From positions 62,001 to 126,000 of the forward strand of contig JAJDAC010000017.1 in the NCBI GenBank assembly GCA_029262065.1: a stretch of DNA of 64,000 nucleotides, read 5' to 3'. The notes under the pieces were generated by a model. The model was not told where the DNA came from. It worked only from the letters and a program-made list of their open reading frames with translations, and ran no database searches. Positions 36,486 to 51,746 of this stretch are shown one piece after another; the first letter of the stretch is position 1; the number at the start of each line of letters is the position of its first letter. A program made the translations under genes and the position numbers. Origin of the DNA: Candidatus Krumholzibacteriota bacterium (GTDB taxonomy: Bacteria; Krumholzibacteriota; Krumholzibacteriia; JAJRXK01).

Positions 36486-36495
36486 CCGCGCATGC

Positions 36496-37710
36496 TTACA
36501 GAGTCGGGGCATGAATGCAACCGAGCACGAGGTCCCGCTGCGCCCCCGTAATGGGCGCCACCCCCGCCGCCTGCGCCTGTAGTGTAAGCCACGCCAACAG
36601 CGCGAAATCCACGGCCTCCTTGGCGTCTCCGTTCTCGCCCAGGGCTTCGATCGGCTCCACCCGGGCGCCCGGCAGGGTGCGGCGAAGCGCCTCCATGACC
36701 GCCTCGTTCCTGCGACCGCCGCCAGTCACGTAGACGCCCAACGGCACATCGCCGCAGCGGCGCCAGTTGCCCAGCTGGTCCAGAAACGATGCCACGGCGC
36801 GGGCCTCCACTTCCACGATTGTGGCCAGCTGGTCTCGTGGCTCGAGATGGCCCGCGTGCTCGAGAAATTCCGACACGAACGGTTCGCCGAATTCCTCGCG
36901 ACCGAAACTCCGCGGCAGCGGGGCCCGGACCCAGGGCTGACGCAGCAGTGTTTCCACCAATGCCGCATCGGGCTGCCCACCCAGAGCCAGTTGTCCTTGC
37001 ATATCGAATTCTTCGCGACCACCGGTCTGTCGGCGCCGCAATTCGTCCAGGGGGAGGTTCGCGGGACCCACATCACCAGCAAACATATCGCGACTCGCGG
37101 CCTCAGCCCCCGGCAGGGCCGTGAGATTGGCCACGCCGCCCAGATTCAGCAACACGCGATCTTCTTCGATGCTGGCGCGCCACCGCAGGTCGGTCGCCGG
37201 CACCAGGGGCGCGCCTTGACCTCCCGCCGCGAAGTCGGCGCTGCGAAAATCGTTGATGACCACGGTGTCCAGGGCCACGGCCAACGCACTACCCGACAAC
37301 ATCTGCCAGGTGTGCCGCGGTTGCGCCGTGGGTTCGTGAGCCAAGGTGATGCCGTGTACGCCGACGAAGGCAACAGCGGACGGCATCAGACCCTCGCGTC
37401 GACATAGACCCTCGGCCGCGTGGACATGGTCGTGCACCACCATCTGTCGTAGCGCGCTCAGCTCAGCCACGGTGGTGGTCGCGCCCTGCGCCAGTTCGCG
37501 CACGCGCGCCACGTTGCAACTGCGGAACCCGAAAGTGTCGAAAGCACGCAGGGACCACTCGCCGCCGGCACCGATCTCAATGAGCCCGACGTCGATGCCA
37601 TCGAGGCTCGTGCCGCACATCATGCCCATGACGAGGGTTGGGGCTTGCCGCAGCCGCGCATCCAGACGTGCCGCCATATTGTCGTGGAGTCCCTGAATCG
37701 GCCGGGTCAC
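36496..37710 (-). CDS. anmK: Anhydro-N-acetylmuramic acid kinase AnmK
   Basis: Opens and phosphorylates 1,6-anhydroMurNAc to MurNAc-6-phosphate. N-terminal VMGMMCGTSLDGIDVGLIEI is the ATP-binding signature; INDFRSADFAAGGQGAPLVP and LNLGGVANLT are family motifs; VTGGGRRNEAVMEAL is the C-terminal sugar-kinase motif. 404 residues, slightly long at the N-terminus. GTG 37710 overlaps the murQ stop (GTGA), giving translational coupling; the product is the MurQ substrate. Confidence 0.95.
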   Translation of the reverse strand: MTRPIQGLHDNMAARLDARLRQAPTLVMGMMCGTSLDGIDVGLIEIGAGGEWSLRAFDTFGFRSCNVARVRELAQGATTTVAELSALRQMVVHDHVHAAEGLCRREGLMPSAVAFVGVHGITLAHEPTAQPRHTWQMLSGSALAVALDTVVINDFRSADFAAGGQGAPLVPATDLRWRASIEEDRVLLNLGGVANLTALPGAEAASRDMFAGDVGPANLPLDELRRRQTGGREEFDMQGQLALGGQPDAALVETLLRQPWVRAPLPRSFGREEFGEPFVSEFLEHAGHLEPRDQLATIVEVEARAVASFLDQLGNWRRCGDVPLGVYVTGGGRRNEAVMEALRRTLPGARVEPIEALGENGDAKEAVDFALLAWLTLQAQAAGVAPITGAQRDLVLGCIHAPTL

Positions 37711-38621
37711 GAGAGTGCCTTCCGCAGGCGTCCTTCGGCGCGCTCGAGACGGGCATCGGCTTGCGCGCGGTCGATTCCCAGTTTCAACATGAGCACCGCC
37801 GGCTTCACCGCGTAGTCGGTCTGATCGAGCATGCGCGAAGCATCTTCGTACTCACAACCGGTAAGCGCCATGACCAGGCCCTTGGCCCGCTCCATGAGCT
37901 TCTGGCTGGTGGGCGCCACGTCGACCATGAGGTTTTCGTAGGTTTTGCCAATGCCCACCATCGCCGCCGTGGAGATCATGGTGAGCATCATCTTCTGCGC
38001 CAGGCCCGATTTCATGCGCGTACTTCCGGCGATGGCCTCGGGGCCCACCACCACCTCTACCACCTGATCGGCCACCGCGGCGTGGTCTTCGTCGAGTTCG
38101 TTGCATACGAGAAACGCAGTCCACGCTTCCCGCTCGCGCGCGCGGGCCAAGGCGCCACGTACGTAAGGCGTACGGCGACTGGCCGAGATACCCACGACCA
38201 CGTCGTGCGGCCCCACCGACGCGTCGTCGACGGCGGTCGCACCGGCGGATGCGACGTCCTCGACACCCTCCTTGCTGCGCACCAACGTCTCATATCCGCC
38301 GGCAATCAGCCCGGTCACCATACCCGAAGGCGTACCGAAGGTCGGCGGACACTCGGCCGCATCGAGCACACCCAGACGGCCCGAGGTACCGGCGCCCACG
38401 TAGAGCAATCGGCCGCCCTGGCGGAAGGCCGCAACCACCCGGTCAACGATGATCGCCAAGTTGGGAATCTGCGCGCGCACGGCGTCAGCCACCGTGCGGT
38501 CTTGATCGTGGATCGCGGCCAGTACCTCTTGGGTGCTGGCCAGGTCGATGTCGCGGGTGGCGGGATTCCGCCGCTCCGTGGTCAGTTGCTGCAACGTGGC
38601 GAAGAGCTCACGATCGTCCAG
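37707..38621 (-). CDS. murQ: N-acetylmuramic acid 6-phosphate etherase MurQ
   Basis: Cleaves the lactyl ether of MurNAc-6-P to GlcNAc-6-P and lactate. Motifs: LTTERRNPATRDIDLAST, LLYVGAGTSGRLGVLDAAE with ECPPTFGTP, DVVVGISASRRTPYV, and STRMKSGLAQKMMLTMIST. The first ordinary start codon is TTG 38594, which has no ribosome site and cuts the conserved N-terminal helix. A CTG at 38621 lies exactly 7 nt after GGAGG (38629-38633) and restores DDRELFATLQQ; an in-frame TGA at 38640-38642 blocks anything longer. I therefore propose a CTG start. Confidence 0.92.
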   Translation of the reverse strand: MDDRELFATLQQLTTERRNPATRDIDLASTQEVLAAIHDQDRTVADAVRAQIPNLAIIVDRVVAAFRQGGRLLYVGAGTSGRLGVLDAAECPPTFGTPSGMVTGLIAGGYETLVRSKEGVEDVASAGATAVDDASVGPHDVVVGISASRRTPYVRGALARAREREAWTAFLVCNELDEDHAAVADQVVEVVVGPEAIAGSTRMKSGLAQKMMLTMISTAAMVGIGKTYENLMVDVAPTSQKLMERAKGLVMALTGCEYEDASRMLDQTDYAVKPAVLMLKLGIDRAQADARLERAEGRLRKALS

Positions 38622-38676
38622 GACGCTACCTCCGTGTATTCATCCCTTGCGCGCCGGCCGGCCCTGCCCTGATGCG

Positions 38677-41600
38677 TCAACGCATGAAGACCAGACGCCC
38701 CATTTCGCCGCGAGCGGTCGCGCTACCGTCGCTCGCTTCCAGTCGATACATGTACACGCCGTTGGCCAATTCGTCACCCTCTTGGTCAAGACCATCCCAG
38801 GTGAACACGAAGTCCGTGGTGGCCGCCGTCAGCGATTCCTGAAGTTGGTGCACCACACGACCGCGCAGATCGTACACGGTCAAACTCACCCGATCCACCA
38901 CCCGCGTCGCGCGACCAATGAAGCGCACGGGACCGTTGCTGGGGTTGGGAAACGGGAAGTGCTGCTGTAGCGACAGGTCTACCGCCGCCACCTGGCTCAA
39001 CGCGAAAGAAGTCTCCACGCCGGAGAGCGACAAGCGAAGTACCTGCGGCACCGAACCATCGCGTCCGGTAGCGGTGAACTGCACGCGCCACGATGTGTCG
39101 TCGCCCGACAGCGCCGTGGTCTGCAGTCCGGTAACATCGCCTCCGTCAATGGAGGCCGCAATGGTGGCCTGCGGTACCGCAACCGCCGCGGTAAATTCCA
39201 TGGTCACCTCGGCCGAACTGCCGGCCGGGAAGCCGCCTGATCCTTCGGCCACGGGCTCGCCGTCGATCGTAACCGACAGTTCGAACGGGACCGTGAATGC
39301 GTACGAGCGCGGGCGCACCGAGGGGTAGGATCCGTCGTAGGCGTCGACCGATACCGTGTAGCTCTGTGGGTACACCGTCAACGCCAGGCTTCCCGTGCGC
39401 TGACGTGGATCGCTTCCCACGGGCAGGTCGACCGGGTAGTCCCGCCCCACACTGTCCGATACTTCCACGCGATCAACGCCGGCAAACGCAGCGCTATCGA
39501 ATGACAGCGCCAGGTCGGTGGAACCCGGCGCGGGGCGCAGTTCCGCACCGTCGGCCAAGGGCTGACCGTCGGCACGCAGGTCGACGGTCGGCGGTCCGGC
39601 CGTGAGCCGCAGCAATGGATCACCCAGCATGTTGTACTGCGCCATCATCTGCCGGCGGTCGTTCAATGAAGTGGCCAGTACGTCAGTCTCGGCCTGGCCC
39701 ATGACTTCGGCCAACAGCAACTGGCTGGGTAGATTACCGTCGCCCACCAACCCCGTGACCCGACCCTCGAGAAACAGCTGGCGCGTGATCAGCTCCATGT
39801 ACCCCGCGTTGGCCTGAAGAAACTCGAACCCGCTGCTGCCATAGGTAGCAATGGCGCCCGTGCTTGTTTGCGTCACCAACACCTCGCCGATGGAACGGGT
39901 CGCGCTAGTGAGTTCATCTTCCTGCAGGAAATCGGACACGTGGCATCCCATGCCAAAGAACAGGAACGGCCGACCTTCGTTGCGCAGATTGGCCAGCGTG
40001 TTCAATTGAACGAATCCCTCGTGGCCCAGGACGTTGTAGTTGGCATGACCCTGGTAGGCCACCACCAACCAGCCCTGGCTCAGGAGGTTTACCAGCGAGG
40101 GCGTGACGACCGTGTTTACCGACTGCGACACCAGACTTCGTTCCGCCGCGGGCCGCCCTTCGCAGGTGGTCATGGCCGTCTCGCGAAAGCCCTCGGTAAA
40201 GGTATCGAGATCCCACAGCTCGCCCGAGACCTGTCCGTTCAGCGCTCTCGTTACCCAGCGGGAAGAACTGTCCTGGCTGGCCGCGAAACGATCTTCGAGG
40301 CTGTCGTATCGATAACAGTTGGTCGCGGTCGAGAAGTAGCTGGTACTCCAGGCGTCGTCGGCCATCCACAGCGTGCGCTCTCGCCATTCATCGTCCACCG
40401 AAGGCTGCTCGTAGGTCAGGATCTTGGACACCATGGCATCGAGCTGACCGTTCGTGTTGGCGGGAAGCCGTCCCACCAGCATGTCGGGTCCCTGGTTCAG
40501 GGTGAACGGGTAGTTCTGGTCTGCACCGAAGATGCCGTACCACTTGTCGGAGGCCAGCAGTTCGTTGGTATCGAAGGTCTGGATATGCAGGCTGGGTGGA
40601 ACGAAATCTTCGGGTGTTTCGTCCACGGGAACCTGACGCGCGTTTTCATTCGCGTCGCCCACCAACAGGGCGGCTTCCGCCCCCCAAGCCGTGTACGCAT
40701 ACTCCAGGAATTCCTTGATGGCTTCGGGCGACTTCAAGCCACCGGAAAACTGGTCGTAGATATCCTGTACGTTCACGTAGTTGTAGTCCCAGCCGAACAG
40801 ATCGTTCTGGCGGCGCCAGTCCAACCAGGGCTCGGTACCCGCGCGATAGCTCTCGGGCCCAATGGCCAGCACCTGCGACACGGGAGTCGACGCCACGACG
40901 TCGAACACCGGGTCTTCTTCCACATCGCGGGTAAAGAGCTGACGAATGCGCCGATCGATCAGACCCACGAATTCACGCTGCTCGCCGGCTGCCTGTGGCA
41001 CGCGCAGGCTCAGCGTGAACTCGGCCCCGTCGGCCACCACGTTGACCGGCGACAAACTGATGACCCGTGGCGCCCGCAGGTCCGTCACGTCGAACAGCAA
41101 CACGCCGGCTTCACTGAAGCCGGTGACCTCGATATCGACGTCTCCGCCCGACTGGTTCGTATGAAAGAAGGCCCGATCAGAGCTGGCCTGATATAGCCCC
41201 TCGTAGGCTAGTCGCACCGAAGCCAGAAACGAAGCCGGTGCACCCGACACGCCTCCCGCGCCGTTCAGGCGCGCCATCTCGAAATTGATGGGCCCGTGCC
41301 CGAAGTTGTCGGCGGGCACGGTCGCCGTGGTCAATGCGCGCTCGAATGCGCGGTCGAAGCTGGCGATGTTTACCTCGGTCAATTGCTGCCGGGTGCCGTC
41401 CTTCTCCAGGTTGAACCGTACGATCGTGGGGTTCGTTCTGATGCGTGTAACCACGCTCCAAGCCACGGTTACATCGGTTCCCGCGCGCGGATGCACCAAC
41501 TCGATGCTGCGTACCACCTGCGCTTCGGGGTTGCTCTCGACGTTTTCGTCGAAACGGTTCCAGTGGTACCTCGGCTCCGAAACAGACCGCGGGTTGTCCT

Positions 41601-42879
41601 GATACCCCGAGTCGCCGCTGAACAATTCGTCACGCGCGTAGAACGGCTGCGGCGACCCCTGCGACGCGCCGAGGGTTTCGGTGGCCATGCGCGCCCAAGC
41701 GTCCGTGCCAGGGTCAGCGGCCACCATCCAGTAGATGTTGGCGTTGTTGAAATTGTCCGGGCGTTTGATCGAAATGGCACGGAACGTATCGCCGTCAATC
41801 TGTCGAGCGGCGGCGTCGTCTTCGGCACTCACGCCGTGGAAGACCAGCACGTCGCCGGCGGCAAGCGTGCCGTTGGGATCGGGGCTGCCCAGGAAGTGCA
41901 ACGGTACGTCCGCGGCTACGGCCGCGGGATACGAAGCATCGAGGGGATCTCCCGCCCGACGTTGATACAACCTGATGAAGCGGCGCGGAATGTCAGATGG
42001 GAAGCCCGCGCTGAACAAGTTGGCTCCCGTAATGCGATAAAGCCGCGTCTCGGCCACCTGGATCCGGAATTCGCTGCTCTGGAACGCGGCGTCGTCCAGC
42101 GGCGCCACGCCACCCACACGTTTTTCGGCATCGTCACGGGGTGTTTCCCACGCGCGCAGTCGTTGGCTTTGCCTTGGGGAAAGTGTCTTCCAGTTGCCGG
42201 CAACCTCGGGGTTCAGCACACCCAGGGACAGTCCCTCGCGGCCGGCGCGTTTGGGTCGGGCAAGATCGCTGGCGCCAGAACTGGAAAACGAAACCGTTAC
42301 CTCGATTACTTCGGCCAAGGTAACGGCGCCCGAACCGACATCGTAGAGCACGGGATCAATCGTAATGGGCGCCGCGTAGTGACGACGCATGTAGACGGCT
42401 TCGCCCAGGCGAACGAGCGCGTTTTCGCCACGCGCGAACGACGCGTAGCCATCGGCTTCGATCAGTTCTTCGGAGACCCGGGGTTGGCCAAACTCGGCGG
42501 ACCGACCAACGCGGGGCGTGGGCACGGGCGCGAGACGACCGCGGCCCAGAGGAGTTCGTTTGATGACCCTCGAGGTGACCCTGGCTTCGCCCGCGGGCGG
42601 CAGGGCGATCCACTTGCCCCACGAAGGCAGGGTCGGCAGGCCTGTTTCGCCCCCGGGCACGGTGCCCGGCAGATGGATGCGCTGATAGTCACGATCGCCG
42701 TTGGGCAGCGACTCCAGCCGCGCCTCGTCGAACGACACGCGGAATTTCAACTGACTGGAAGTGCTTTCAAGGATTTCCACATCCACCGCGGCCCATGCCG
42801 TGATTGCGGATGACAGGAAGACGATCGATAGGGCCGTAATGAGTAACAGACGTACGGGGCCCGGGTACACAACGCGCAA
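38677..42879 (-). CDS. Gingipain-like C25 family cysteine peptidase with FlgD-like C-terminus
   Basis: About 1400 residues, exported (signal VRLLLITALSIVFLSSAITAWA). The N-terminal ~500 residues are beta-rich propeptide-like regions. The C25 catalytic pair is visible as His in AYQGHANYNVLGHE (residue ~945) and Cys in FFGMGCHVSDFLQE (~979). Then come Ig-like domains and a C-terminal FlgD-like/T9SS type A-like region (FPFPNPSNGPVRFIG, LTVYDLRGRVVHQL, LANGVYMYRLEASD). C25 family proteins are usually secreted by type IX secretion. TTG 42879 has AAGGAG 6 nt upstream; a GTG at 42900 is the longer option. Directly downstream of the paralog array. Confidence 0.86.
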   Translation of the reverse strand: MRVVYPGPVRLLLITALSIVFLSSAITAWAAVDVEILESTSSQLKFRVSFDEARLESLPNGDRDYQRIHLPGTVPGGETGLPTLPSWGKWIALPPAGEARVTSRVIKRTPLGRGRLAPVPTPRVGRSAEFGQPRVSEELIEADGYASFARGENALVRLGEAVYMRRHYAAPITIDPVLYDVGSGAVTLAEVIEVTVSFSSSGASDLARPKRAGREGLSLGVLNPEVAGNWKTLSPRQSQRLRAWETPRDDAEKRVGGVAPLDDAAFQSSEFRIQVAETRLYRITGANLFSAGFPSDIPRRFIRLYQRRAGDPLDASYPAAVAADVPLHFLGSPDPNGTLAAGDVLVFHGVSAEDDAAARQIDGDTFRAISIKRPDNFNNANIYWMVAADPGTDAWARMATETLGASQGSPQPFYARDELFSGDSGYQDNPRSVSEPRYHWNRFDENVESNPEAQVVRSIELVHPRAGTDVTVAWSVVTRIRTNPTIVRFNLEKDGTRQQLTEVNIASFDRAFERALTTATVPADNFGHGPINFEMARLNGAGGVSGAPASFLASVRLAYEGLYQASSDRAFFHTNQSGGDVDIEVTGFSEAGVLLFDVTDLRAPRVISLSPVNVVADGAEFTLSLRVPQAAGEQREFVGLIDRRIRQLFTRDVEEDPVFDVVASTPVSQVLAIGPESYRAGTEPWLDWRRQNDLFGWDYNYVNVQDIYDQFSGGLKSPEAIKEFLEYAYTAWGAEAALLVGDANENARQVPVDETPEDFVPPSLHIQTFDTNELLASDKWYGIFGADQNYPFTLNQGPDMLVGRLPANTNGQLDAMVSKILTYEQPSVDDEWRERTLWMADDAWSTSYFSTATNCYRYDSLEDRFAASQDSSSRWVTRALNGQVSGELWDLDTFTEGFRETAMTTCEGRPAAERSLVSQSVNTVVTPSLVNLLSQGWLVVAYQGHANYNVLGHEGFVQLNTLANLRNEGRPFLFFGMGCHVSDFLQEDELTSATRSIGEVLVTQTSTGAIATYGSSGFEFLQANAGYMELITRQLFLEGRVTGLVGDGNLPSQLLLAEVMGQAETDVLATSLNDRRQMMAQYNMLGDPLLRLTAGPPTVDLRADGQPLADGAELRPAPGSTDLALSFDSAAFAGVDRVEVSDSVGRDYPVDLPVGSDPRQRTGSLALTVYPQSYTVSVDAYDGSYPSVRPRSYAFTVPFELSVTIDGEPVAEGSGGFPAGSSAEVTMEFTAAVAVPQATIAASIDGGDVTGLQTTALSGDDTSWRVQFTATGRDGSVPQVLRLSLSGVETSFALSQVAAVDLSLQQHFPFPNPSNGPVRFIGRATRVVDRVSLTVYDLRGRVVHQLQESLTAATTDFVFTWDGLDQEGDELANGVYMYRLEASDGSATARGEMGRLVFMR

Positions 42880-43036
42880 GGTAGACTCCTTCCAACTCAC
42901 CGGAGTGAAGCGTTGCTCAGGGGGTCGGCGGCAGCCTACGGGATGTGTCCCTCAGGGGGTAGCGTTCGGCGCCTGGAGCGTTCACGCCGACTGTGGAGCC
43001 AGGAACCGTGCATCCACAGCCTCTATTGTAGCGCGG

Positions 43037-43146
43037 CCAGGCAACACGGGCAAGGCGCCGGAACCAAGGACCGTGCCTGGCCGCCTCTTGGTCAGGCAAC
43101 GCGAGCAAGGAGCCGGAGCGAAGAACCGTGCCGGGCCGCCTCTTGG
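43037..43146. repeat. Two tandem copies of a 55-bp hairpin-bearing repeat
   Basis: Copy 1 43037-43091 and copy 2 43092-43146 abut exactly and match at roughly 47 of 55 bases; a partial third copy is at 42995-43030. Each copy holds an inverted repeat around the loop GCCTCTT. The last copy forms the terminator after the first array gene. Confidence 0.75.
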
Positions 43147-43156
43147 CCCGGCACGG
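43126..43156 (-). terminator. Terminator of the first array gene
   Basis: Perfect 12-bp stem (CCGTGCCGGGCC / GGCCCGGCACGG, plus strand) with a 7-nt loop, starting 7 nt past the stop at 43163; TTCTTC follows on the minus strand. Confidence 0.72.
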
Positions 43157-43162
43157 CAGTAT

Positions 43163-43735
43163 TCACTGGTCCACGAACTCGGACTTCACGCCCCCGAAGC
43201 TCTTCTGGCCGGCGTTGATCGCCGCGGCTCCGATGTCGTCGAAGTCGTGGATCTCTGAATTGCCCGAACAGTCGAGGAACGAAGGCCCCATATTCTGGCC
43301 CGCGATCGACGGCAACAGACCGATTCGGAGGTTCTCGGCGGGCGCCAGGAGCATCGCGGTGTAATCCACCAGCACCACCGTGTAGCCGGTGTCACAAGTG
43401 CCCATACCCACGAGCCAGTCATCTTCGGTACCGATGTTGATTGCGGTGCCTGGACGTGCCTCCCGGCCGGTCACCGTGATGCCATCGGGCACATCCACCT
43501 CGAATTGATAGCCACGCAGACCACCGCTGATCTCGCTGGCCACCACGTAGAAGTGGAACGCCTGGAGCGCCCCTACCTGGAGCGATGATTTGATCTCGTT
43601 CTCCGCGAACGAAATGCTGACCTTCGACGCCACTGAGGGAGACGCCGCGAGCACCAGGGCCATGGCAACGGATAGGCCGCCAACCCCTGCAAGAAAACGA
43701 ACGTGCCAGCGGACGGACTTGAATCGACCGTCCAT
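43163..43735 (-). CDS. Small secreted array protein A, C-terminal SFGGVK tag variant
   Basis: 190 residues from ATG 43735 (GGAAGG upstream). Signal peptide VRFLAGVGGLSVAMALVLAA, then a single beta-rich domain (LQAFHFYVVASEISGGLRGY, QFEVDVPDGITVTG, GTAINIGTEDDWLVGMGTCD, TGYTVVLVDYTAMLLAPAEN). The order matches the other array members: leader, FYVVA strand, a [GN]xxINxG turn and a VG.G.C segment. The C-terminus QKSFGGVKSEFVDQ is the most divergent copy of the shared tag and has three extra residues. No enzyme motifs; a cohesin-like sandwich is possible. It has its own promoter and terminator. Confidence 0.78.
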   Translation of the reverse strand: MDGRFKSVRWHVRFLAGVGGLSVAMALVLAASPSVASKVSISFAENEIKSSLQVGALQAFHFYVVASEISGGLRGYQFEVDVPDGITVTGREARPGTAINIGTEDDWLVGMGTCDTGYTVVLVDYTAMLLAPAENLRIGLLPSIAGQNMGPSFLDCSGNSEIHDFDDIGAAAINAGQKSFGGVKSEFVDQ

Positions 43736-43807
43736 GAGGGTTCCTTCCTTTGCTGGAAGCACTTTTGATCGGCGGGAAGCACCGAACGTGCTGATGGTCA
43801 CCTTGTC

Positions 43808-43837
43808 ATTATAGCCGTCTCAAAGGTGACCCCTCAA
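43808..43837 (-). promoter_or_regulatory. Promoter of array gene A with flanking inverted repeat
   Basis: TTGAGG (43832-43837), 18-bp spacer and a perfect TATAAT (43808-43813), about 70 nt before the start at 43735. A 7-bp inverted repeat, GGTCACC at 43797-43803 and GGTGACC at 43825-43831 on the plus strand, straddles the -10 box and could be an operator. Confidence 0.6.
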
Positions 43838-43855
43838 GCGCGCTTCGGAAATGCG

Positions 43856-44617
43856 TCAGAAACGTGCTTTGACTGCGCCCCAGCTTTCGGAGAACACGGG
43901 AACGGGACACCCTTCCTCGCCCAGGAGCGGAGTAGCGCAGTCACACTGCTGAGACGCGTTAACGACTAGTTCGTAGGCGCAACCACACCGGCCATTCTCG
44001 TTGACTGCGCGGGAGGCGTCCCACCCCGTAAAGGGCCGAATACACGCACCGTTGGAGCACTCGTTTTGCACCGCCGGGTTCTCTTCCAACCAGCCCGGTA
44101 CTGCACCCGGGCCACCCGTGATGTCGAAGCTGGATGGCGCCGGAATCCCAAACGTCAATGACAGGTCCGTTACATCCTGCAACAGAATCCCACTGTAGTT
44201 CACCAGCGCATACGGCATGCTACTCGCAGTCACCACCGCGCCCGTGCCTACAATCCAGCCCCCCGGCGCGCCGGCCACGTTGATGCTCGTGGACGGATTC
44301 AGGACCTGACCGGCCACGGTGATCTCGGGCGGGACATTCACCAGAACTTCCCAGCCGGCGAGTCCATTCGTGGCGTTCTGCTGACCCTGCCCAATGGCTT
44401 CGAAGTCCACATTCACGACCAGGAAGAAATCGAAAGGCACGAACGTGGGCACTGCGTCCGGCGATCCGGCCTCCACACACGTCGAGTTACGATCTTCGAC
44501 ATCGAAGACCAGATAGATTTCACCGAACCCCTGACCAAAGGCCGTTTGTGCGTGAGCGGACGGCGAGTGTGATGCAACCACGGCAAGAACCATGGTCACC
44601 AGGGCGATGTGTTTCAT
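43856..44617 (-). CDS. Small secreted array protein B, C-terminal ESWGAVKARF tag
   Basis: 253 residues, ATG 44617 with GGAGG 8 nt upstream. Signal peptide MKHIALVTMVLAVVASHS to about residue 23. Beta-rich domain with FGEIYLVFDVEDRNSTCVEA, VPFDFFLVVNVDFEAIGQGQ, EVLVNVPPEITVAGQVLNPS, TSINVAGAPGGWIVGTGAVV. A Cys-rich block (CSNGACIRPFTGWD, GRCGCAYELVVN, CDC) probably holds disulfides. Ends exactly with ESWGAVKARF. Closest to protein C, of which it is a clear duplicate. Function unknown. Confidence 0.82.
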   Translation of the reverse strand: MKHIALVTMVLAVVASHSPSAHAQTAFGQGFGEIYLVFDVEDRNSTCVEAGSPDAVPTFVPFDFFLVVNVDFEAIGQGQQNATNGLAGWEVLVNVPPEITVAGQVLNPSTSINVAGAPGGWIVGTGAVVTASSMPYALVNYSGILLQDVTDLSLTFGIPAPSSFDITGGPGAVPGWLEENPAVQNECSNGACIRPFTGWDASRAVNENGRCGCAYELVVNASQQCDCATPLLGEEGCPVPVFSESWGAVKARF

Positions 44618-44693
44618 GTCGGGACCTCCGTCTACAACCTACGGATACGAACCCGGCCTCATCAAGCCCCGTGCGTCAGATGGTCCAACAACG

Positions 44694-44723
44694 AAAAAGG
44701 GGCACCCGCGATGCGGATGCCCC
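44694..44723 (-). terminator. Terminator of array gene C
   Basis: GGGGCACCCGC / GCGGATGCCCC 11-bp stem with one mismatch, loop GAT, followed on the minus strand by TTTTT. Begins 27 nt past the stop at 44750. Confidence 0.85.
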
Positions 44724-44749
44724 AAGAATCTTCGATGCGATCGCGGCTT

Positions 44750-45475
44750 CTAGAAGCGCGACTTCACCGCACCCCAACTCTCATTGGTGGTCGCAGTAGC
44801 GATCACACAGTCACAGGGCGTGCTCTTGTTGACGACCAACTTGTAGGCACAACCATCGCGACCGTTGGCGTTGGTTTGCGTCCCGTCCCAACCCGTGAAA
44901 GGACGGAGGCAATTGTTGATACATTCGCCACCGATCCCGTTCTCTTCGAGCCAGCCAGGAAACGCACCGGGGCCACCCGTTACGTCAAAGCTGGATGGGC
45001 TGGGGATCGACATGGAGAACTCGAGATCCGGGACGTCCTGCAGCAGAATTCCACTGTAGTTCACCACGGCGAAGGGCATGCTGGCGGCCGTGATCAGCCC
45101 GCCGGTACCCACGATCCAATCGCCAGGTCCACCCACATTGATGCTCGTGGACGGGTTCAGCACCTGACCAGCGAGGGTGATCTCCGGGGGAGTTATTACA
45201 CGAACTTCCCAAGCGTCGATCCCGTTCGTGGCGTTCTGTTGACCCTGCCCAATGGCTTCGAAGTTAACATTCACAACCAGGAAGAAATCGAAGGGGACAA
45301 ATGTCGGAATTGCATCCGGCGATCCGGCCTCCACACACGTGGAGTTACGATCCTGGACATCGAAGGCGAAGTAGATTTCACCGAACGGCTGGCCGAAACC
45401 GGTTTGAGCCGCGACCGGAGCCGACATGCCCGCCAGGCAGAGCATGGCCAGGGCAGCGATAGCGAGACGATTCAT
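44750..45475 (-). CDS. Small secreted array protein C, C-terminal ESWGAVKSRF tag
   Basis: 241 residues from ATG 45475, preceded by AGGAGG. Signal peptide MNRLAIAALAMLCLAGMSAP. Very similar to B: FGEIYFAFDVQDRNSTCVEA, VPFDFFLVVNVNFEAIGQGQ, PPEITLAGQVLNPSTSINVG, NYSGILLQDVPDLEFSMSIP, PFTGWDGTQTNANGRDGCAY and a CDC motif. Ends with ESWGAVKSRF. The B/C pair is a recent tandem duplication; conserved Cys positions argue for an extracytoplasmic folded domain. Confidence 0.83.
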   Translation of the reverse strand: MNRLAIAALAMLCLAGMSAPVAAQTGFGQPFGEIYFAFDVQDRNSTCVEAGSPDAIPTFVPFDFFLVVNVNFEAIGQGQQNATNGIDAWEVRVITPPEITLAGQVLNPSTSINVGGPGDWIVGTGGLITAASMPFAVVNYSGILLQDVPDLEFSMSIPSPSSFDVTGGPGAFPGWLEENGIGGECINNCLRPFTGWDGTQTNANGRDGCAYKLVVNKSTPCDCVIATATTNESWGAVKSRF

Positions 45476-45887
45476 GTTGTCCAACCTCCTTGACAACATT
45501 GCGCGGTCCGATTCATCGCGGATGTTCTGATCCGTCGGACCGGCGTGAGAACTTAGTCAAACCGTGGGGCCACGGAGCTGGATGATCCACTCCCCACCGA
45601 GAACCTGAAAATGCCTTGAATGGACGTGTTCCCAGCGTCTGGAAACCACGACCGTTGTTGTGGTTACAGCGAATGTACCACAACGTCAAGGACTTTCGCG
45701 CTCGACGGAGTGGGGTCGTCGAACTCTCAAGAAAGAACAGAAGGGTCGAGACGTAAGTCCGTTCCCGACCGGATCAATATACGTCGAACTGGGACAAAAA
45801 GAAACGAAAGGAACGGCCACGAACGCAAACGGCCGCCCCCGGATGGGGAGCGGCCGTCGAACCAAAGCCAGAAGGCGTCGGCAAGGC
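45476..45887. other. Intergenic region between array genes C and D
   Basis: 412 bp. Contains the terminator of gene D (45823-45857), a stretch of A/G-rich DNA after it, a short inverted repeat ACCACGAC-N4-GTTGTGGT (45646-45665) and a possible weak promoter for gene C on the minus strand (TTGACG at 45684-45689, 15-bp spacer, TGTAAC at 45663-45668). No protein gene is supported on either strand. Confidence 0.45.
45823..45857 (-). terminator. Terminator of array gene D
   Basis: ACGGCCGC (45829-45836) and GCGGCCGT (45850-45857) pair perfectly, with an inner CCCC/GGGG; TTTGCGTT follows on the minus strand. 30 nt past the stop. Confidence 0.78.
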
Positions 45888-46499
45888 CTAGAAACGGCCC
45901 TTCACGGAGCCGAAGCTGTCCTGGATGGTGGCTACCGGGGGCTCGCCCGCGGACTCGTACACCACGGCACAGCCGCCGCCGTAGGTGTCCGACTGGGCAC
46001 CTACGCCGAACGGAATCAGGCCGCTGTCACAGGTCAAGAACCCAGGCACGGCCGGAGCAAAGCTCGAGGGCGTGGCGGGCAGCAGGCAGATGAGCAGGTT
46101 CTCGAGACCCGGCGTGAATACGCCGTACGTGAACTGAACCAGCACGATCTCGCCGGCACTCGGAGCACAGTTACCCAGACCCACGATCAACTCGTTGGGG
46201 CCATCCCCTACATTGATCGGGCTTCCGGGCGGCACGATGACCGGCACGCCGAACGTCAGGATGTTGGGATCGATGAACAGATCGAATTCGAATCCCGCGA
46301 TGCCAACGCCGCCGTCGACGTTGCTGGCCACGATGAAGAAGTTGTTGGTGGTCGTGAACACGGGCGGGTTGCCCGTGGTCTGCGTGCCCAGCTGATCGAA
46401 AGAGACGACAACGTCATTCGGCTGTAGCTGGGCGAACGCGACCGTAGCGAGAGAAAGCGAGAGAAAGGCCGTGAGGCCCACAATGAGCAGACGATGCAA
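45888..46499 (-). CDS. Small secreted array protein D, C-terminal DSFGSVKGRF tag
   Basis: 203 residues. Start chosen as TTG 46499: it lies exactly 7 nt after GGAGG (46507-46511) and directly begins the signal peptide (HRLLIVGLTAFLSLSLATVA). The frame is open to 46670 without signal features. Beta-rich domain: VVVSFDQLGTQTTGNPPVFT, TTNNFFIVASNVDGGVGIAG, FEFDLFIDPNILTFGVPVIV, GSPINVGDGPNELIVGLGNC, LVQFTYGVFTPGLENLLICL. The G-x-x-G-F-E-F-D-L-x-x-D-P-x-x-L pattern resembles cohesin-type domains. Ends with DSFGSVKGRF. Clade mate of E and F. Confidence 0.84.
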   Translation of the reverse strand: MHRLLIVGLTAFLSLSLATVAFAQLQPNDVVVSFDQLGTQTTGNPPVFTTTNNFFIVASNVDGGVGIAGFEFDLFIDPNILTFGVPVIVPPGSPINVGDGPNELIVGLGNCAPSAGEIVLVQFTYGVFTPGLENLLICLLPATPSSFAPAVPGFLTCDSGLIPFGVGAQSDTYGGGCAVVYESAGEPPVATIQDSFGSVKGRF

Positions 46500-46633
46500 T
46501 GGATGTCCTCCAGGTGGGATCGTCATCCCGGATCTGGTTTCGAACCGGGATGGGGTTGTCGGTGGGGAAGCCCCAAGGAACCTTGAGTATACCGCAAGCC
46601 TGGCGCCCACGCGCGACTCAGATACCCCAAGAT

Positions 46634-46667
46634 GAAGAAGGGCGCCTCCCCGTGTGGAGAGGCGCCC
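46634..46667 (-). terminator. Terminator of array gene E
   Basis: GGGCGCCTC (46640-46648) pairs with GAGGCGCCC (46659-46667), 9 bp; TTCTTC follows on the minus strand. 29 nt past the stop at 46696. Confidence 0.75.
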
Positions 46668-46695
46668 CATGGCTACGAAATCGCCAGGGTTCGCT

Positions 46696-47304
46696 TTAGA
46701 AGCGACCCTTCACGGCGCCGAAGCTGTCATGCGAGGTCGCGATGGGGTTGCCGGGATCGGACGCGTACACAACGCCACAACCGTCGGGGTAGCTGCCGCC
46801 ACCATTGTTACGAGCACCAGCGCTGTTCAGCGAGCTGTCGCAACCAAGGTAACCAGGCACGGCCGGCGCGAAGCTCGAAGGCGACGCGGCGACGATGCAG
46901 ATCAGCAGGTCCGACAGACCGGGCGCGAACACGCCGTAGGTCCACTGTACCAGCGGGGTCACACCAGCGCTCTGGGCACAGTTACCCAGACCAACGATGA
47001 GCTCGTTGGGGCCGTCGCCCACATTGATCGGGCTGCCGGCAGGCAAGATCACGGGAACACCAAAGGTCAGGATGTTCGGGTCGACGATCAGGTCGAACTC
47101 GAAACCGGCGATACCGGTTCCGCCGTTGGCATCTTCGGCCACCACGTAGAACAGGTTGGTGGTCGTGAATACGGGCGGGGCCGCATTCGTCGTGGTGCCA
47201 GCCTGATCAAAGCTGACACCGAGGTCGCCGGCATCGGCAAAAGCCGAGGTAGCGAGCGCACAAACGGCCAGAGCCGTGATGGCGAGAGTAGCAAACTTCT
47301 TCAT
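46696..47304 (-). CDS. Small secreted array protein E, C-terminal DSFGAVKGRF tag
   Basis: 202 residues from ATG 47304 with GGAGG upstream. Signal peptide MKKFATLAITALAVCALATS. Domain nearly colinear with D and F: LGVSFDQAGTTTNAAPPVFT, TTNLFYVVAEDANGGTGIAG, FEFDLIVDPNILTFGVPVIL, GSPINVGDGPNELIVGLGNC, WTYGVFAPGLSDLLICIVAA, then SPSSFAPAVPGYLGCDSS. Ends with DSFGAVKGRF. Cohesin-like by pattern only. The leader contains a perfect 11-bp hairpin (47342-47371). Confidence 0.84.
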   Translation of the reverse strand: MKKFATLAITALAVCALATSAFADAGDLGVSFDQAGTTTNAAPPVFTTTNLFYVVAEDANGGTGIAGFEFDLIVDPNILTFGVPVILPAGSPINVGDGPNELIVGLGNCAQSAGVTPLVQWTYGVFAPGLSDLLICIVAASPSSFAPAVPGYLGCDSSLNSAGARNNGGGSYPDGCGVVYASDPGNPIATSHDSFGAVKGRF

Positions 47305-47341
47305 GGACAGTCGTCCTCCAGTGGTCGTCACGCTTGTTGAT

Positions 47342-47371
47342 GAAGAAGTGGCCAGAGATAGCCACTTCTTC
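47342..47371 (-). promoter_or_regulatory. Perfect 11-bp leader hairpin of array gene E
   Basis: GAAGAAGTGGC / GCCACTTCTTC with an 8-nt loop, 38 nt upstream of the start codon and about 50 nt downstream of the terminator of gene F. No T-run follows, so it is more likely a 5'-UTR structure (mRNA stability or translation control) than a terminator. Confidence 0.45.
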
Positions 47372-47420
47372 GCGGTTCTCGGGGCCCAGACATGTCAATT
47401 GCGCATGTCCGCCCCCACTC

Positions 47421-47443
47421 AAAACCCCAGCCCGTTGCGGGGT
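47421..47443 (-). terminator. Terminator of array gene F
   Basis: ACCCC/GGGGT stem with a TTT run on the minus strand. A second, perfect 10-bp hairpin (TCGCCCCGGC / GCCGGGGCGA, 47454-47479) stands between it and the stop at 47510, giving a double terminator. Confidence 0.68.
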
Positions 47444-47509
47444 CAGGGGCTAATCGCCCCGGCTCAGAGGCCGGGGCGAATTCATGCAGTCGGGAACGAT
47501 GTCCTCGAC

Positions 47510-48112
47510 TTAGAAACGTCCCTTCACGGCACCAAAGCTCTCCATCGTGGTAGCTACGGGAGCTTCGCCAGTGGCGTAGACAACCGCACAGCCATCGCCG
47601 TAGGTGGCGCTCTGAGCACCCAGACCATAGGGAACCAGGCCGCCATCGCAGCGCAGGTAACCAGGCACGGCCGGATTGAAGCTCGAGGGCGACGAAGCAA
47701 TGAGGCAGATCGTGAGGTCGGCTGCGCCGGGAGTGAATACACCGTAGGTCCACTGCGCCAGGGCAGTGGCTCCGCCACCTGGGGCGCAGTTGCCAAGACC
47801 AACAATGAGCTCGTTGGCGCCGTCGCCAACGTTGATCGGGCTACCCGGGGGTAGGATCACGGGAACACCAAACGTCAGGATCACCGGGTCGACGAGCAGT
47901 TCGAACTCGAATCCCGACACTTCAGCGTTATCGTGATCGAATCCAACAACGTAGAAGAGATTGGTAGTCGTGAACGGCGCGGGGTCGGCGGTGGTCACGG
48001 TTCCTGCGAGGTCGAAAGTTACAGCGATGTCATTTGGCTCGGCCTGGGCAAACGCCATGGAGCTAAAGGCTACCAGGCTGACCAGAACCGCAAAAGTCAT
48101 AAGCTTCTTCAT
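47510..48112 (-). CDS. Small secreted array protein F, C-terminal ESFGAVKGRF tag
   Basis: 200 residues from ATG 48112 with GGAGGG upstream. Signal peptide MKKLMTFAVLVSLVAFSSMA. Domain: DIAVTFDLAGTVTTADPAPF, TTTNLFYVVGFDHDNAEVSG, FEFELLVDPVILTFGVPVIL, GSPINVGDGANELIVGLGNC, WTYGVFTPGAADLTICLIAS. Two Cys pairs as in D and E. Ends with ESFGAVKGRF. The frame is open to 48265 but lacks a signal there. Confidence 0.84.
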   Translation of the reverse strand: MKKLMTFAVLVSLVAFSSMAFAQAEPNDIAVTFDLAGTVTTADPAPFTTTNLFYVVGFDHDNAEVSGFEFELLVDPVILTFGVPVILPPGSPINVGDGANELIVGLGNCAPGGGATALAQWTYGVFTPGAADLTICLIASSPSSFNPAVPGYLRCDGGLVPYGLGAQSATYGDGCAVVYATGEAPVATTMESFGAVKGRF

Positions 48113-48223
48113 GAAGGAGAACCCTCCGCTTGAAGACTGGAATTGGTTTGCAGGAGACCACGATGATCCCCGGACGAGATTAATATTTCGGGCGACGCGA
48201 TCAAAGTCTCTAGGTGAAGAGTT

Positions 48224-48271
48224 GAGTGGGTGGCGGCGGTGTGCCAGAAAGCATCCGCGCGCCACCCGCTC
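48224..48271 (-). terminator. Terminator of array gene G
   Basis: GAGTGGGTGGCG (48224-48235) pairs with CGCCACCCGCTC (48260-48271), 11 of 12 bp, with a long internal loop. Lies 43 nt past the stop at 48314. T content after the stem is modest (TCAACTCTTC). Confidence 0.55.
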
Positions 48272-48313
48272 GTATCGATCGCGACAAGACCAACCAGATC
48301 CAAAAGGATCTGA

Positions 48314-48874
48314 CTAGTACAGGCTCTTGACTGCTCCGAAGCTCTCCGAACGCGTAGCGATCGGGGGCTCGATAGTCAGACTAGGACCTACATCACAAGG
48401 CTTTACGAGGCCCTGACAAGTAGCGTACTGGGGACGAGTAACATCGCCGTCGACATCCGGATTCGGAAGAACATTGATGCTACCACCAGGGTTGGCCGCG
48501 GTTACCAGTACATCGTAGCAGGTAACAACAACCGGAAGCCCGGTGAACCCAATCGCGCACTCGCCAAGACCAACATTGTTTCCACCCGGGGTGATGACGT
48601 TGATTCCACTAGCGTTCGGGCCATACGTGATGCCCGAAACGAACAGCGTGCTGTTCTCGTCAGGGAACTCAATGTCATACGCCGCCGCGTTGATGGTGTC
48701 CTCGGAAAAGAGAACCACATAAACGGGAAACGCCTGGACTTCTGTAGGTTGGAACAGACCGACTGTTCCGTCGCGGTCGGCATAGGCACCGATGCTGCAC
48801 TGCTGTGCAGCAGCGGACCCCGCGGTCAGCGCAAGAGCCAGCGCCAAACCAACTGCCATTGTCCGTTTCAGCAT
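48314..48874 (-). CDS. Small secreted array protein G, C-terminal ESFGAVKSLY tag
   Basis: 186 residues from ATG 48874 (AGGAG 9 nt upstream). Signal peptide MLKRTMAVGLALALALTAGS. The mature part is unlike D-F in sequence (CSIGAYADRDGTVGLFQPTE, AFPVYVVLFSEDTINAAAYD, IEFPDENSTLFVSGITYGPN, NNVGLGECAIGFTGLPVVVT) but keeps the same order of strands and the VGLGEC segment. Ends with ESFGAVKSLY, so the tag is far better conserved than the domain. Function unknown. Confidence 0.82.
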   Translation of the reverse strand: MLKRTMAVGLALALALTAGSAAAQQCSIGAYADRDGTVGLFQPTEVQAFPVYVVLFSEDTINAAAYDIEFPDENSTLFVSGITYGPNASGINVITPGGNNVGLGECAIGFTGLPVVVTCYDVLVTAANPGGSINVLPNPDVDGDVTRPQYATCQGLVKPCDVGPSLTIEPPIATRSESFGAVKSLY

Positions 48875-48990
48875 AAGCTTTCTCCTCATGAGACTGCTAT
48901 TGCAAAGGTTGCGGATTTAAGGAGCTCGCCAGCCTTTCAGACAATCAGTGCCTCGCGACACCAACCTTCCGTAGCAGGCTAAACAGTAAC

Positions 48991-49593
48991 CTAGGGGCAG
49001 CTTTCGCCATTAGCGGAAGCAAAGCCACCTACGTCAGCCAGATTCTCGGTTCCATCACAGGTGAAGTCGGAACGGAAGTCGAAACTACCGTTGCTGAAGT
49101 CACCAGCGAAGTCACCAAGGTCAGCCAGGTTAACGGTGATATCGCCGTTGATATCCTGGCTGTTCACGTCGATGAGCAAGGCGGGACCAGACAGGGAAAC
49201 GCCGGCCAGATAGACCTGCATCCCACCCTGAGTCCAGCCACCACCAGCGATGGGGCCACTAATCGTGGTCACACCGGCGGCGTTGGTGTTTGCATCTGCG
49301 ACGCTACCACCCTGACAAAGAGCGATGTCGCCGGAACCATCGTCATCCAGCCAGATATCCTGGAAGGGATAGCCGGGGATGGGATCGGTGTTTCCGTCGA
49401 TTACCGTCACGGTAACGGTGAGTCCTGCTGCTCCCAGCGAGGAACCGTTGCCGGCCGGAGTGATATTCAGACAGCCACTGCCCGAGGAAGCAGTGCTATT
49501 GCCGGGATCAGGAATCCCAGCCATCGCCAAACTGCTTAGCCCCAGAACCAGGATGCCTGCAGCGACGAGACTCAAGAGTCTCTTGTTGATCAT
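48991..49593 (-). CDS. Secreted protein with two C-terminal dockerin-like calcium loops
   Basis: 200 residues, ATG 49593 with AGGAGG upstream. Signal peptide MINKRLLSLVAAGILVLGLS. Middle part is a beta-sandwich-like domain (GLTVTVTVIDGNTDPIPGYP, GSVADANTNAAGVTTISGPI). The C-terminal ~55 residues hold two EF-loop-like segments, DINGDITVNLADLGDFAGDF and DFTCDGTENLADVGGFASAN, each with Asp/Asn at loop positions 1, 5, 9 and 12 as in dockerin type I. The array tag is missing; the protein ends NGESCP. First gene of the array in the direction of transcription, with its own promoter. Confidence 0.8.
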   Translation of the reverse strand: MINKRLLSLVAAGILVLGLSSLAMAGIPDPGNSTASSGSGCLNITPAGNGSSLGAAGLTVTVTVIDGNTDPIPGYPFQDIWLDDDGSGDIALCQGGSVADANTNAAGVTTISGPIAGGGWTQGGMQVYLAGVSLSGPALLIDVNSQDINGDITVNLADLGDFAGDFSNGSFDFRSDFTCDGTENLADVGGFASANGESCP

Positions 49594-49720
49594 TTAGGAC
49601 ACCTCCTACAAGGTACTTCGCGCAACCGGTTGAGGTTGTGCCGGTCACGCTGCTGATCGGATGAATTATCCGCGCGTCTGACCTCCTTCTACTCTTTCAA
49701 TCCAATACTCGACGTGAAGG

Positions 49721-49749
49721 ATGGTATCACGCGCCCCTTCCAGTGTCAA
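49721..49749 (-). promoter_or_regulatory. Promoter of the dockerin-like gene
   Basis: Perfect TTGACA (49744-49749), 17-bp spacer, TACCAT (49721-49726; four of six). Predicts a leader of about 120 nt. Confidence 0.52.
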
Positions 49750-49872
49750 CAATTCGAAACGCGAGCAAGTCGCGGGGATACAGCAATTTACCGGATTCGA
49801 GCGGAACCTGAGAGTAACCCGGAGACTGGCGACTGCAAGCCTTTTGGCCAGGCGGGGAGCACCCGGTTGGGC

Positions 49873-49891
49873 GCCCTGGTGGAGGATGGGC
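49873..49891 (-). ncRNA. Candidate hairpin with CCUCC loop, copy 2
   Basis: Minus strand GCCC/GGGC stem closing AUCCUCCACCA. Shares the 13-nt core CCCATCCTCCACC with the hairpin near tRNA-Asp. No clear terminator follows, so it is weaker evidence for a small RNA than the first copy. Confidence 0.22.
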
Positions 49892-49997
49892 CAGCATGAG
49901 GTACCATGGCGCCCCGAGCCGGCGGCCCGTCTACGGGTCGACCGAGGGCCTCAGCCCCCCTAGGGGTCGGGTCAATCTCAATGAAAATAAGGATGGG

Positions 49998-50074
49998 TGG
50001 TGGGCGAAACAGGATTCGAACCTGTGACCCCCTGCGTGTAAAGCAGGTGCTCTAACCAGCTGAGCTATTCGCCC
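49998..50074 (-). tRNA. tRNA-Val (TAC)
   Basis: Minus-strand cloverleaf of 77 nt: acceptor GGGCGAA/TTCGCCC, U8-A9-G10, D-arm AGCTCAGCTGGTTAGAGC, anticodon arm CCTGC-TTTACAC-GCAGG with anticodon TAC, T-arm CAGGTTCGAATCCTG, discriminator A and encoded CCA. Its first ten bases are also the end of the upstream small protein gene. Confidence 0.96.
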
Positions 50075-50244: not shown

Positions 50245-50317
50245 TCAAAACTCCCCAACGGACCCGCAGTCTGCGGCCCGCAAACCTAGGCAACCAGACT
50301 CGGCGCGTCAAGCAGCC

Positions 50318-51349
50318 TCAACCACCTTGCCGCCGGATCCGCCGGTATTCGGCCACGGCCTGCTGATGCTCGCGCCAGGTACGACTGAAAACATGCCCCC
50401 CCTGGCCATCGGCCACGAAGTACATGGCTTCGAAACCCTCGGCGGGCCATAATGCCGCCACGATCGCTCCCCGCCCGGGGCTGCCGATGGGTCCGGGCGG
50501 CAATCCCGGGTATTTGTAGGTGTTGTACTCCGAATCGACCTCAAGATCCCGGAACAGGAGCCGTTCCCCCTGTTTGTCGAGTGCATAGGCCACCGTGGGA
50601 TCGGCCTCGAGCTTCCAACCCTTCTTCACCCGATTGTGGTACACCGCCGCGACCTTTACCTGCTCCTCGCCCAACCGGGCTTCCGTTTCCACGATCGACG
50701 CCAGGGTCATTATTTCGTGCATGGAGAACCCCATGGCCGCGGCCCGTGACCGGAAGGAATCCGGCACGGCCTGCTCGAACGTGGAGATCAGTTCCTCAAG
50801 AACCTCCCGCGCGGACAGGCCCGGCGCGAACCGGTAGGTATCGGGAAACAGATATCCCTCAAGGCCGGCCCCTTCGGGCAACTGTAGGCGATCGCGCCAA
50901 CCGTCTGGCGGCTTGGCGGCCAGCGTCAGCAGCTCCTCGCGATCGATGGAAAGCGAGTCGGCCAGCGCCGCCACAATCTGCCGCGCGGTCCAGCCTTCGG
51001 GCAGGGTGACCGCCTTCGTCAAGACCTCACCCGCTACGAGCTTGTTCAGAACCACCGATGCCGATGCGCCCAGCGGCAGACGATAGCGCCCTGCCTTCAA
51101 CGACCGCGCACCACCCTCCAGCCGGGCGAGCAGTCTCAGCTTCCACGCGGCATCGATCACACCGGCCTGCTCGAGTTCACCCGCGACCCGGCGCAGGGAA
51201 GTGCCGGCCCGTAGGTCGAACTCCGTGAACTGGGTCGCCGCCCGGCTCGAGTACAAATCACGCCAGACGGAAACGCCCGCCACAAGCCCGGCAAGCAAGC
51301 CGGCCAACGCCACGGACAGGATCCACCTTCTAGTGCTTGTCATTGCCAT
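50318..51349 (-). CDS. mltG: Endolytic murein transglycosylase MltG
   Basis: Inner-membrane enzyme that cuts nascent glycan strands and sets their length. 343 residues: N-terminal anchor (RRWILSVALAGLLAGLVAGV), LysM-like region (FDLRAGTSLRRVAGELEQAG), and the YceG catalytic domain with the active Glu in LASIVETEARLGEE, then VAAVYHNRVKKGWKLEADPT and NTYKYPGLPPGPIGSPG. ATG 51349 or 51343, both overlapping the end of ruvX; the frame is open further up without anchor sequence. Confidence 0.93.
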   Translation of the reverse strand: MAMTSTRRWILSVALAGLLAGLVAGVSVWRDLYSSRAATQFTEFDLRAGTSLRRVAGELEQAGVIDAAWKLRLLARLEGGARSLKAGRYRLPLGASASVVLNKLVAGEVLTKAVTLPEGWTARQIVAALADSLSIDREELLTLAAKPPDGWRDRLQLPEGAGLEGYLFPDTYRFAPGLSAREVLEELISTFEQAVPDSFRSRAAAMGFSMHEIMTLASIVETEARLGEEQVKVAAVYHNRVKKGWKLEADPTVAYALDKQGERLLFRDLEVDSEYNTYKYPGLPPGPIGSPGRGAIVAALWPAEGFEAMYFVADGQGGHVFSRTWREHQQAVAEYRRIRRQGG

Positions 51350-51746
51350 GACCGCCGTCCAGATAATCCTGAAGTAGTACCGCGGCCGCGACCGCATCGC
51401 GGCGTTGGCGAACGTCGGATTGTCCGCGCAGAATGCCATCGGCCGCGACCGAGGTATAGCGTTCGTCGACCATGATCACCGGAACGTCCACATGGTCGCG
51501 AACCTTCGCGGCCAAACGTTCGGCGTACACCGCCGAGCTGCCGCGCTCGCCCATCTGCGTCAACGGTAGCCCCACCAGGATGCGCACCGCACCGTGCTGC
51601 GCTACGAGCTGAGCCAGTAGGGTCATGAGCGAGCCATCGCGTTTGCGGTCGTGGGTTTGCAGGGGCCGCGCCAACGTGCCGGTCGAGTCCGACAGCGCGA
51701 TGCCCGTGCGGCGTTCCCCCGGGTCCAGGGCCAGGATTACCGGCAT
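51330..51746 (-). CDS. ruvX: Holliday junction resolvase-like protein RuvX (YqgF)
   Basis: 138 residues from ATG 51746 (GGGAG upstream), the standard length. RNase H-like fold: MPVILALDPGERRTGIALSD holds the first catalytic Asp, ILVGLPLTQMGERGSSA the middle motif, MVDERYTSVAAD the second acidic site. Functions in pre-16S rRNA 5'-end processing and possibly recombination. The usual RuvX-MltG neighbourhood is kept. Confidence 0.93.
   Translation of the reverse strand: MPVILALDPGERRTGIALSDSTGTLARPLQTHDRKRDGSLMTLLAQLVAQHGAVRILVGLPLTQMGERGSSAVYAERLAAKVRDHVDVPVIMVDERYTSVAADGILRGQSDVRQRRDAVAAAVLLQDYLDGGHGNDKH

Follow-up and report, generated by a model that had tools for sequence, protein, structure and literature searches.

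A short C-terminal tag on secreted proteins of the Krumholzibacteriota and a neighbouring PorU-like protease: a candidate minimal sorting signal linked to type IX secretion

Known signals of the type IX secretion system (T9SS) are folded C-terminal domains (CTDs) of roughly 70–100 residues, and in Porphyromonas gingivalis the last 13–22 residues hold the essential information: secretion of type A CTD proteins needs the last 13 residues, notably the lysines of motif E, and the terminal 22 residues of HBP35's CTD are enough to export green fluorescent protein (GFP) (PMC10202324). PorU cleaves at T/E/D/N|G/A/S, after which the protein is transferred to anionic lipopolysaccharide (A-LPS) (PMC10202324). 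For type B signals there are shuttles of their own, whose genes often lie beside those of the substrates (PMC12618676, PMC9143113). Here we describe a tag of about 16 residues that ends many secreted proteins of a Candidatus Krumholzibacteriota bacterium, and a PorU-like C25 cysteine protease, C25-II, encoded directly beside a cluster of the tagged genes. The analysis starts from 64,000 nucleotides (assembly GCA_029262065.1, contig JAJDAC010000017.1, positions 62,001 to 126,000), hereafter the window, to which all coordinates without a locus or genome handle refer. We suggest that the tag serves as a minimal sorting signal linked to T9SS and may be processed at the cell surface by C25-II as a dedicated sortase, a reading to which we assign a probability of about 0.55.

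A C-terminal tag on secreted proteins of unrelated families

A preliminary description of the window had pointed to seven neighbouring secreted proteins with a common C-terminal peptide. Rereading gave all seven C-termini exactly as first stated, all on the minus strand, and added an eighth tagged protein that had been missed.

43163..43735, minus strand: tagged secreted protein A, 190 amino acids, with a signal peptide; ends KSFGGVKSEFVDQ; tag KSFGGVKSEF followed by VDQ, core 43175-43201
43856..44617, minus strand: tagged secreted protein B, 253 amino acids; tag ESWGAVKARF, core 43859-43885
44750..45499, minus strand: tagged secreted protein C, 249 amino acids; tag ESWGAVKSRF, core 44753-44779
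45888..46526, minus strand: tagged secreted protein D, 212 amino acids; tag DSFGSVKGRF, core 45891-45917
46696..47304, minus strand: tagged secreted protein E, 202 amino acids; tag DSFGAVKGRF, core 46699-46725
47510..48112, minus strand: tagged secreted protein F, 200 amino acids; tag ESFGAVKGRF, core 47513-47539
48314..48889, minus strand: tagged secreted protein G, 191 amino acids; tag ESFGAVKSLY, core 48317-48343
24019..25293, minus strand: eighth tagged protein, a GSDH-type beta-propeller, 424 amino acids; ends GEKASMGAVRARFGNSPD / ASMGAVRARFGNSPD

The in-frame nucleotide pattern for the tag begins AGCTGGGGNNNNNTNAAG. As a back-translated degenerate motif the tag has seven matches in the window against 0.05 expected from shuffles. 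In the source genome (G000; 5.77 Mb, 59 contigs), the motif followed by a stop codon occurs 39 times and its reversed pattern once. A six-frame search that did not ask for the stop returned 62 matches, all of which lie 0–6 codons before one (39 with an immediate stop; 18 and 5 others, checked, all within six codons). The tag is therefore strictly C-terminal, and it is almost certainly a real feature. It is also portable: the 66 tagged open reading frames (ORFs) collected from this genome fall into 40 single-linkage families once the tag is removed. Signal peptides were scored positive in 59/65 tagged proteins with complete 5' ends, compared with 54/313 untagged genes (Fisher p ~3e-30), using a home-made and crude score that was similar for the two sets.

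The search of relatives proposed in the preliminary description covered 69 genomes of the phylum (below, G handles denote genomes, L handles fetched loci, f5 a family and g33 a genus). Tags with an immediate stop number 125 in 58 genomes (9 for the control), and the form that ends in arginine has 851 matches in 66/69 genomes with none for the reversed control, reaching 44 per genome in family f5. A clear signal peptide is present in 27 of the 28 arginine-ended examples that were read; the remaining one (L175) is a frame that lacks a proper start. A Bacteroidetes metagenome-assembled genome used as an outside control has no tags, although a single genome proves little. Additionally, some tagged proteins bear lipoprotein-type signal peptides (L052:7501-9797, L062:3836-4720), so that a lipid at the N-terminus would accompany the tag at the other end.

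Over 215 tagged ORFs the consensus is [VI]-[APG]-[TV]-E-x-x-[ST]-[WF]-G-x-[VI]-K-[AGS]-[LRM]-[FY]-(R), with the lysine and the glycine the most conserved residues. Conservation extends beyond the search pattern into positions -7 to -3: in the source genome V/I stands at -6 in 61/66 tagged ORFs, T/V at -4 in 58/66, and E is common at -3. The tag is accordingly about 16 residues long and not ten, as in the preliminary description, and up to six residues are tolerated after the final F/Y. In some tags the glycine gives way to serine, threonine or aspartate, as in SWSEIKSLY, TWTGVKNLFD and SFDSVKSLYR (L128, L133 and L136, upstream of C25-II; L142, L148-L150).

Given that the seven proteins of the window are distantly related, the peptide might have been no more than the terminal strand of a structured domain common to seven paralogues, which the preliminary description had named as the outcome that would overturn its reading. 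We give this almost no credence, since the genome-wide distribution refutes it: about 40 unrelated families of the source genome have the tag, joined to different domains. The Pfam and NCBIfam matches of tagged proteins concern their bodies (GSDH, NHL, malectin, beta-helix, Calx-beta, DUF1349), and no NCBIfam or Pfam sorting domain was matched by the tagged proteins scanned. An AlphaFold model of the seven window paralogues is poor (mean predicted local distance difference test, pLDDT, 45, with the tail lowest) and therefore neither supports nor refutes the last-strand explanation. A search of the PDB with a profile built from 35 tagged bodies gave no credible match; streptavidin-construct entries aligned with the N-terminal 124 positions of the profile at E=0.01-0.02. 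The preliminary suggestion of a short recognition tag is thus supported at the level of sequence, by its unrelated families, its association with signal peptides and its spread through the phylum.

Relation of the tag to the T9SS C-terminal domain

The genes of a T9SS are present throughout: SprA and PorV-family proteins are each matched in 69/69 genomes, and FlgD-Ig, the local form of the T9SS CTD, has at least 150 matches in the source genome. Among the fetched ORFs (215 tagged, 99 with the CTD pattern) none carries both endings, yet for 21 tagged bodies there is a homologue with the CTD. For this reason the tag and the CTD look interchangeable, as alternative endings of the same bodies. For instance, tagged and CTD-bearing bodies share 57% identity both at L019/L041, where the genes are neighbours, and at L097/L109; window protein C shares 49% identity over 124 amino acids with a protein (L219) that has a T9SS-type CTD. 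The body of protein B is likewise homologous to a CTD-bearing protein encoded elsewhere in the source genome, and the eighth tagged protein is related to CTD-bearing propellers there. Tagged malectin proteins also stand beside giant CTD proteins at L036; these secreted giants (L036:768-7562 and 10220-16000) reach about 1900-2300 amino acids and carry T9SS CTDs in addition to repeated malectin-like domains, and the small tagged versions that adjoin them have a single domain.

The tag is itself no CTD of a described type. Although SprA and PorV are encoded in the genome, as for type A signals, no Ig-like domain of 70-80 residues (PF18962/TIGR04183, or FlgD_ig) was found in tagged proteins. CHU_C, the type B domain, had no match at E<=0.01 in the tagged proteins scanned, and the type C model was not searched by name. 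By eye, the tag, G-x-[VI]-K-x-[LM]-[FY]-R, resembles the CTD's final strand, G-x-[IV]-V-x-[LM]-R, a likeness that we offer as a lead only.

The interchange with CTDs bears on a further idea of the preliminary description, that the terminal Phe/Tyr is a beta-signal for insertion by the beta-barrel assembly machinery (BAM). An aromatic residue at the C-terminus is what recommends it. Lysine is no part of the BAM beta-signal, whereas in the tag it is, with glycine, the most conserved residue. Up to six residues follow the aromatic one, the recognisable bodies are soluble (propeller, malectin, beta-helix, NHL, Calx-beta; many others have no Pfam match), and the same bodies elsewhere end in Ig-type CTDs. 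We consider this explanation very improbable.

The tag could instead be a non-covalent docking peptide: a receptor at the surface or in the periplasm would bind the C-terminal W/F-G-x-V-K-x-x-F/Y and hold the protein at the envelope uncleaved. Such a role would suit the lack of a transmembrane helix, the lipoproteins among the tagged proteins, and the strict C-terminal position with its aromatic end, which may be compared to C-terminal ligands of the PDZ or encapsulin type. The recurrent neighbour, however, is a protease and not a binding protein, no receptor gene was identified, and the mutual exclusion of tag and CTD suggests a role in sorting. Docking thus seems to us decidedly unlikely.

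A PorU-like protease beside the tagged genes

The preliminary description had advised looking for a co-occurring partner gene, and a candidate lies directly after the seven tagged genes of the window.

38677..42900, minus strand: C25-II, PorU-like C25 cysteine protease, 1407 amino acids; with C25 propeptide, catalytic domain and, at its end, a CTD of FlgD-Ig/T9SS type; candidate for the tag's sortase

Its C25 fold is clear (PF01364, E=1.4e-58). The His/Cys dyad (H952 and C986 in the 1407-amino-acid form) is intact, and both residues are invariant in 17/17 C25-II sequences. The five-sequence profile of C25-II has matches in 67/69 genomes. Wherever at least 1 kb upstream of the gene could be read, tagged genes stand directly upstream in 42/48 loci: 39 with one to seven tagged genes on the same strand and 3 with the diverged tags SWSEIKSLY, TWTGVKNLFD and SWSSVKSLF. 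At a density of no more than about 44 tags per 4 Mb, we estimate the probability of chance adjacency at any one locus to be a few per cent. In genus g33 a tagged gene lies about 4.3-4.8 kb downstream of C25-II instead.

C25-II is, judged from its sequence, a PorU paralogue distinct from canonical PorU. Some 30 genomes have canonical PorU as a second C25 gene, adjoining PorV, whereas C25-II adjoins tagged genes and does not stand beside porV. C25-II and canonical PorU (ten copies) form separate clades (supports 1.0 and 0.99). Against the PorU model NF033707 (cut-off 420 bits), four canonical copies score 468-552, and C25-II mostly 163-201 (95 in L090); against the PorU2 model NF052324 (cut-off 450 bits), C25-II scores 39-124. 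The canonical gene of the source genome lies beside PorV at G000:C14:87063-90798 (L246), which gives this genome two distinct PorU-type proteases. At L125 (G017:C11:18066-22037) a relative of C25-II, also a C25 protease, has no tagged neighbours.

Does the tag need C25-II at all? It might be an export signal for the ordinary SprA/PorV shuttle, processed by canonical PorU if at all, and C25-II might be a secreted protease that just happens to be encoded beside some of the tagged genes. The universality of T9SS in the phylum, the swapping of tag and CTD on the same bodies, and two tag-rich genomes in which C25-II is not detectable would all fit. On this account, however, one would not expect C25-II to stay adjacent in most families while the number of tagged genes and the tag sequences vary, nor canonical PorU to adjoin PorV instead of tagged genes. 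We regard an ordinary shuttle without C25-II as unlikely.

The surroundings of the locus are themselves partly kept. In the window they comprise the following genes.

48991..49593, minus strand: untagged secreted protein whose C-terminus holds a dockerin-like (EF-hand-like) repeat
50318..51439, minus strand: MltG/YceG endolytic transglycosylase, conserved upstream flank
33622..38594, minus strand: conserved downstream flank, peptidoglycan turnover, consisting of the next four
37707-38594, minus strand: SIS-domain MurQ/GKRP-like protein
36496-37677, minus strand: AnmK
35172-36485, minus strand: SpoIID
33622-35016, minus strand: GH3 NagZ-like protein

Genes for peptidoglycan turnover (MltG, SpoIID, AnmK, MurQ-like, NagZ-like) flank the tag/C25-II locus, partly kept, across much of the phylum (window 33622-51439; L112-L150), and tRNA-Val (49998-50074) and tRNA-Asp (33486-33563) lie near its two ends. 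In many relatives and families a counterpart of the dockerin-like protein is encoded upstream of the tagged genes (L123:11217-11837, L101:3546-4175, L112:9573-10256); Pfam Dockerin_1 gives no more than a marginal match (E=0.0018 in one relative). From their appearance the tagged bodies had been suspected to be cohesins; Pfam gives this no support.

A proposed sorting route and its comparison with known systems

We propose the following route. Tagged proteins would be exported by Sec through their N-terminal signal peptides. In the periplasm the tag would act as a stripped-down T9SS signal, equivalent to the last motifs of a classical CTD, and its lysine, by analogy with the P. gingivalis CTDs, may be essential. 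The protein would then be handed to the T9SS that every genome of the phylum has. At the cell surface the dedicated second PorU-type protease, C25-II, which itself has a T9SS-type CTD, would recognise the tag, cut shortly before it, close to the conserved [VI]-[APG]-T-E, and either release the protein or transfer it to a surface acceptor. The T9SS export, the cleavage, the part played by C25-II and the acceptor are what we infer by analogy; the sequences themselves show the tag with its position and portability, its link to signal peptides, its exchange with the CTD, the adjacency of C25-II and the T9SS genes.

Several observations weigh against this proposal. Tag, T9SS and C25-II are each near-universal in the phylum, and their co-occurrence across it therefore discriminates little. 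C25-II occupies one locus while most tagged genes lie elsewhere, and the adjacency could be an operon relic. No C25-II ortholog was detected in tag-rich G025 (16 tags) or G052 (28 tags), both fragmented assemblies, the latter 96% complete. No homology has been demonstrated between the motifs of the tag and those of the CTD, and the lipoprotein-type signal peptides at L052 and L062 would be odd if the tag is a surface anchor.

A variant of the proposal, which we hold tentatively and consider possible but less than probable, is a parallel sorting system that works alongside canonical T9SS/PorU, in which a dedicated PorU-paralogue sortase would read the tag of about 16 residues, itself free of a transmembrane helix or a folded domain, and join the unrelated proteins that bear it to a separate surface acceptor. 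Because the peptidoglycan-turnover neighbours (MltG, SpoIID, AnmK, NagZ-like) are conserved, such a system might be linked to cell-wall glycans.

If the proposed minimal signal is real, dozens of proteins per genome would carry a natural sorting signal of about 16 residues, a minimal form whose recognition could be tested directly by GFP fusion, and the paired C25 paralogue would represent a second class of such sortases among Gram-negative bacteria. Moreover, a simple sequence rule would predict the surface or secreted proteome of a phylum for which the family models tried give no match. In the papers and family libraries searched, no earlier description of the tag turned up.

How the tag compares with described sorting signals can be stated for each in turn. 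PEP-CTERM, IPTL-CTERM, MYXO-CTERM and GlyGly-CTERM are, like the tag, short C-terminal sequences found genome-wide on signal-peptide proteins of unrelated families. Those tags, however, consist of a signature, a transmembrane helix plus a basic cluster, and their readers are membrane-embedded proteases, whereas the tag has no helix or basic cluster and its proteins end 0–6 residues past the F/Y; the preliminary description was right to keep it apart from PEP-CTERM. An exosortase was discarded as reader of the tag, with PF09721 present in 26/69 genomes and in none of the tag-richest family f5; the source genome, unlike f5, does encode one (G000:C14:311140-311889).

C25-II resembles PorU (NF033707) and PorU2 (NF052324) in its homology, its C25 propeptide-like region, its His/Cys dyad and its CTD. 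It differs in scoring far below both cut-offs, in forming its own clade and in standing beside tagged genes, not PorV.

The T9SS type B CTD (CHU_C, with PorP/SprF-like shuttles) offers a precedent for a second class of signal with a specialised partner encoded beside its substrates (PMC12618676, PMC9143113). It is, however, about 100 residues long, apparently uncleaved and partnered by an outer-membrane beta-barrel, whereas the partner of the tag would be a C25 protease. The type A CTD (PF18962/TIGR04183, with PorV and PorU) is likewise a sorting signal at the C-terminus of Sec-exported proteins whose bodies are unrelated; it too has a conserved lysine near the C-terminus, it occurs on homologous bodies in these genomes, and its known system relies on processing by a C25 cysteine protease. 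The tag is unlike it in having about 16 residues and no Ig fold in place of 70-80 residues, being, as the preliminary description held, far shorter than a T9SS CTD; it does not match PF18962/TIGR04183, and its neighbour is a PorU paralogue and not PorU/PorV. By analogy, then, the tag would work like a T9SS sorting signal, yet it belongs to no described CTD type.

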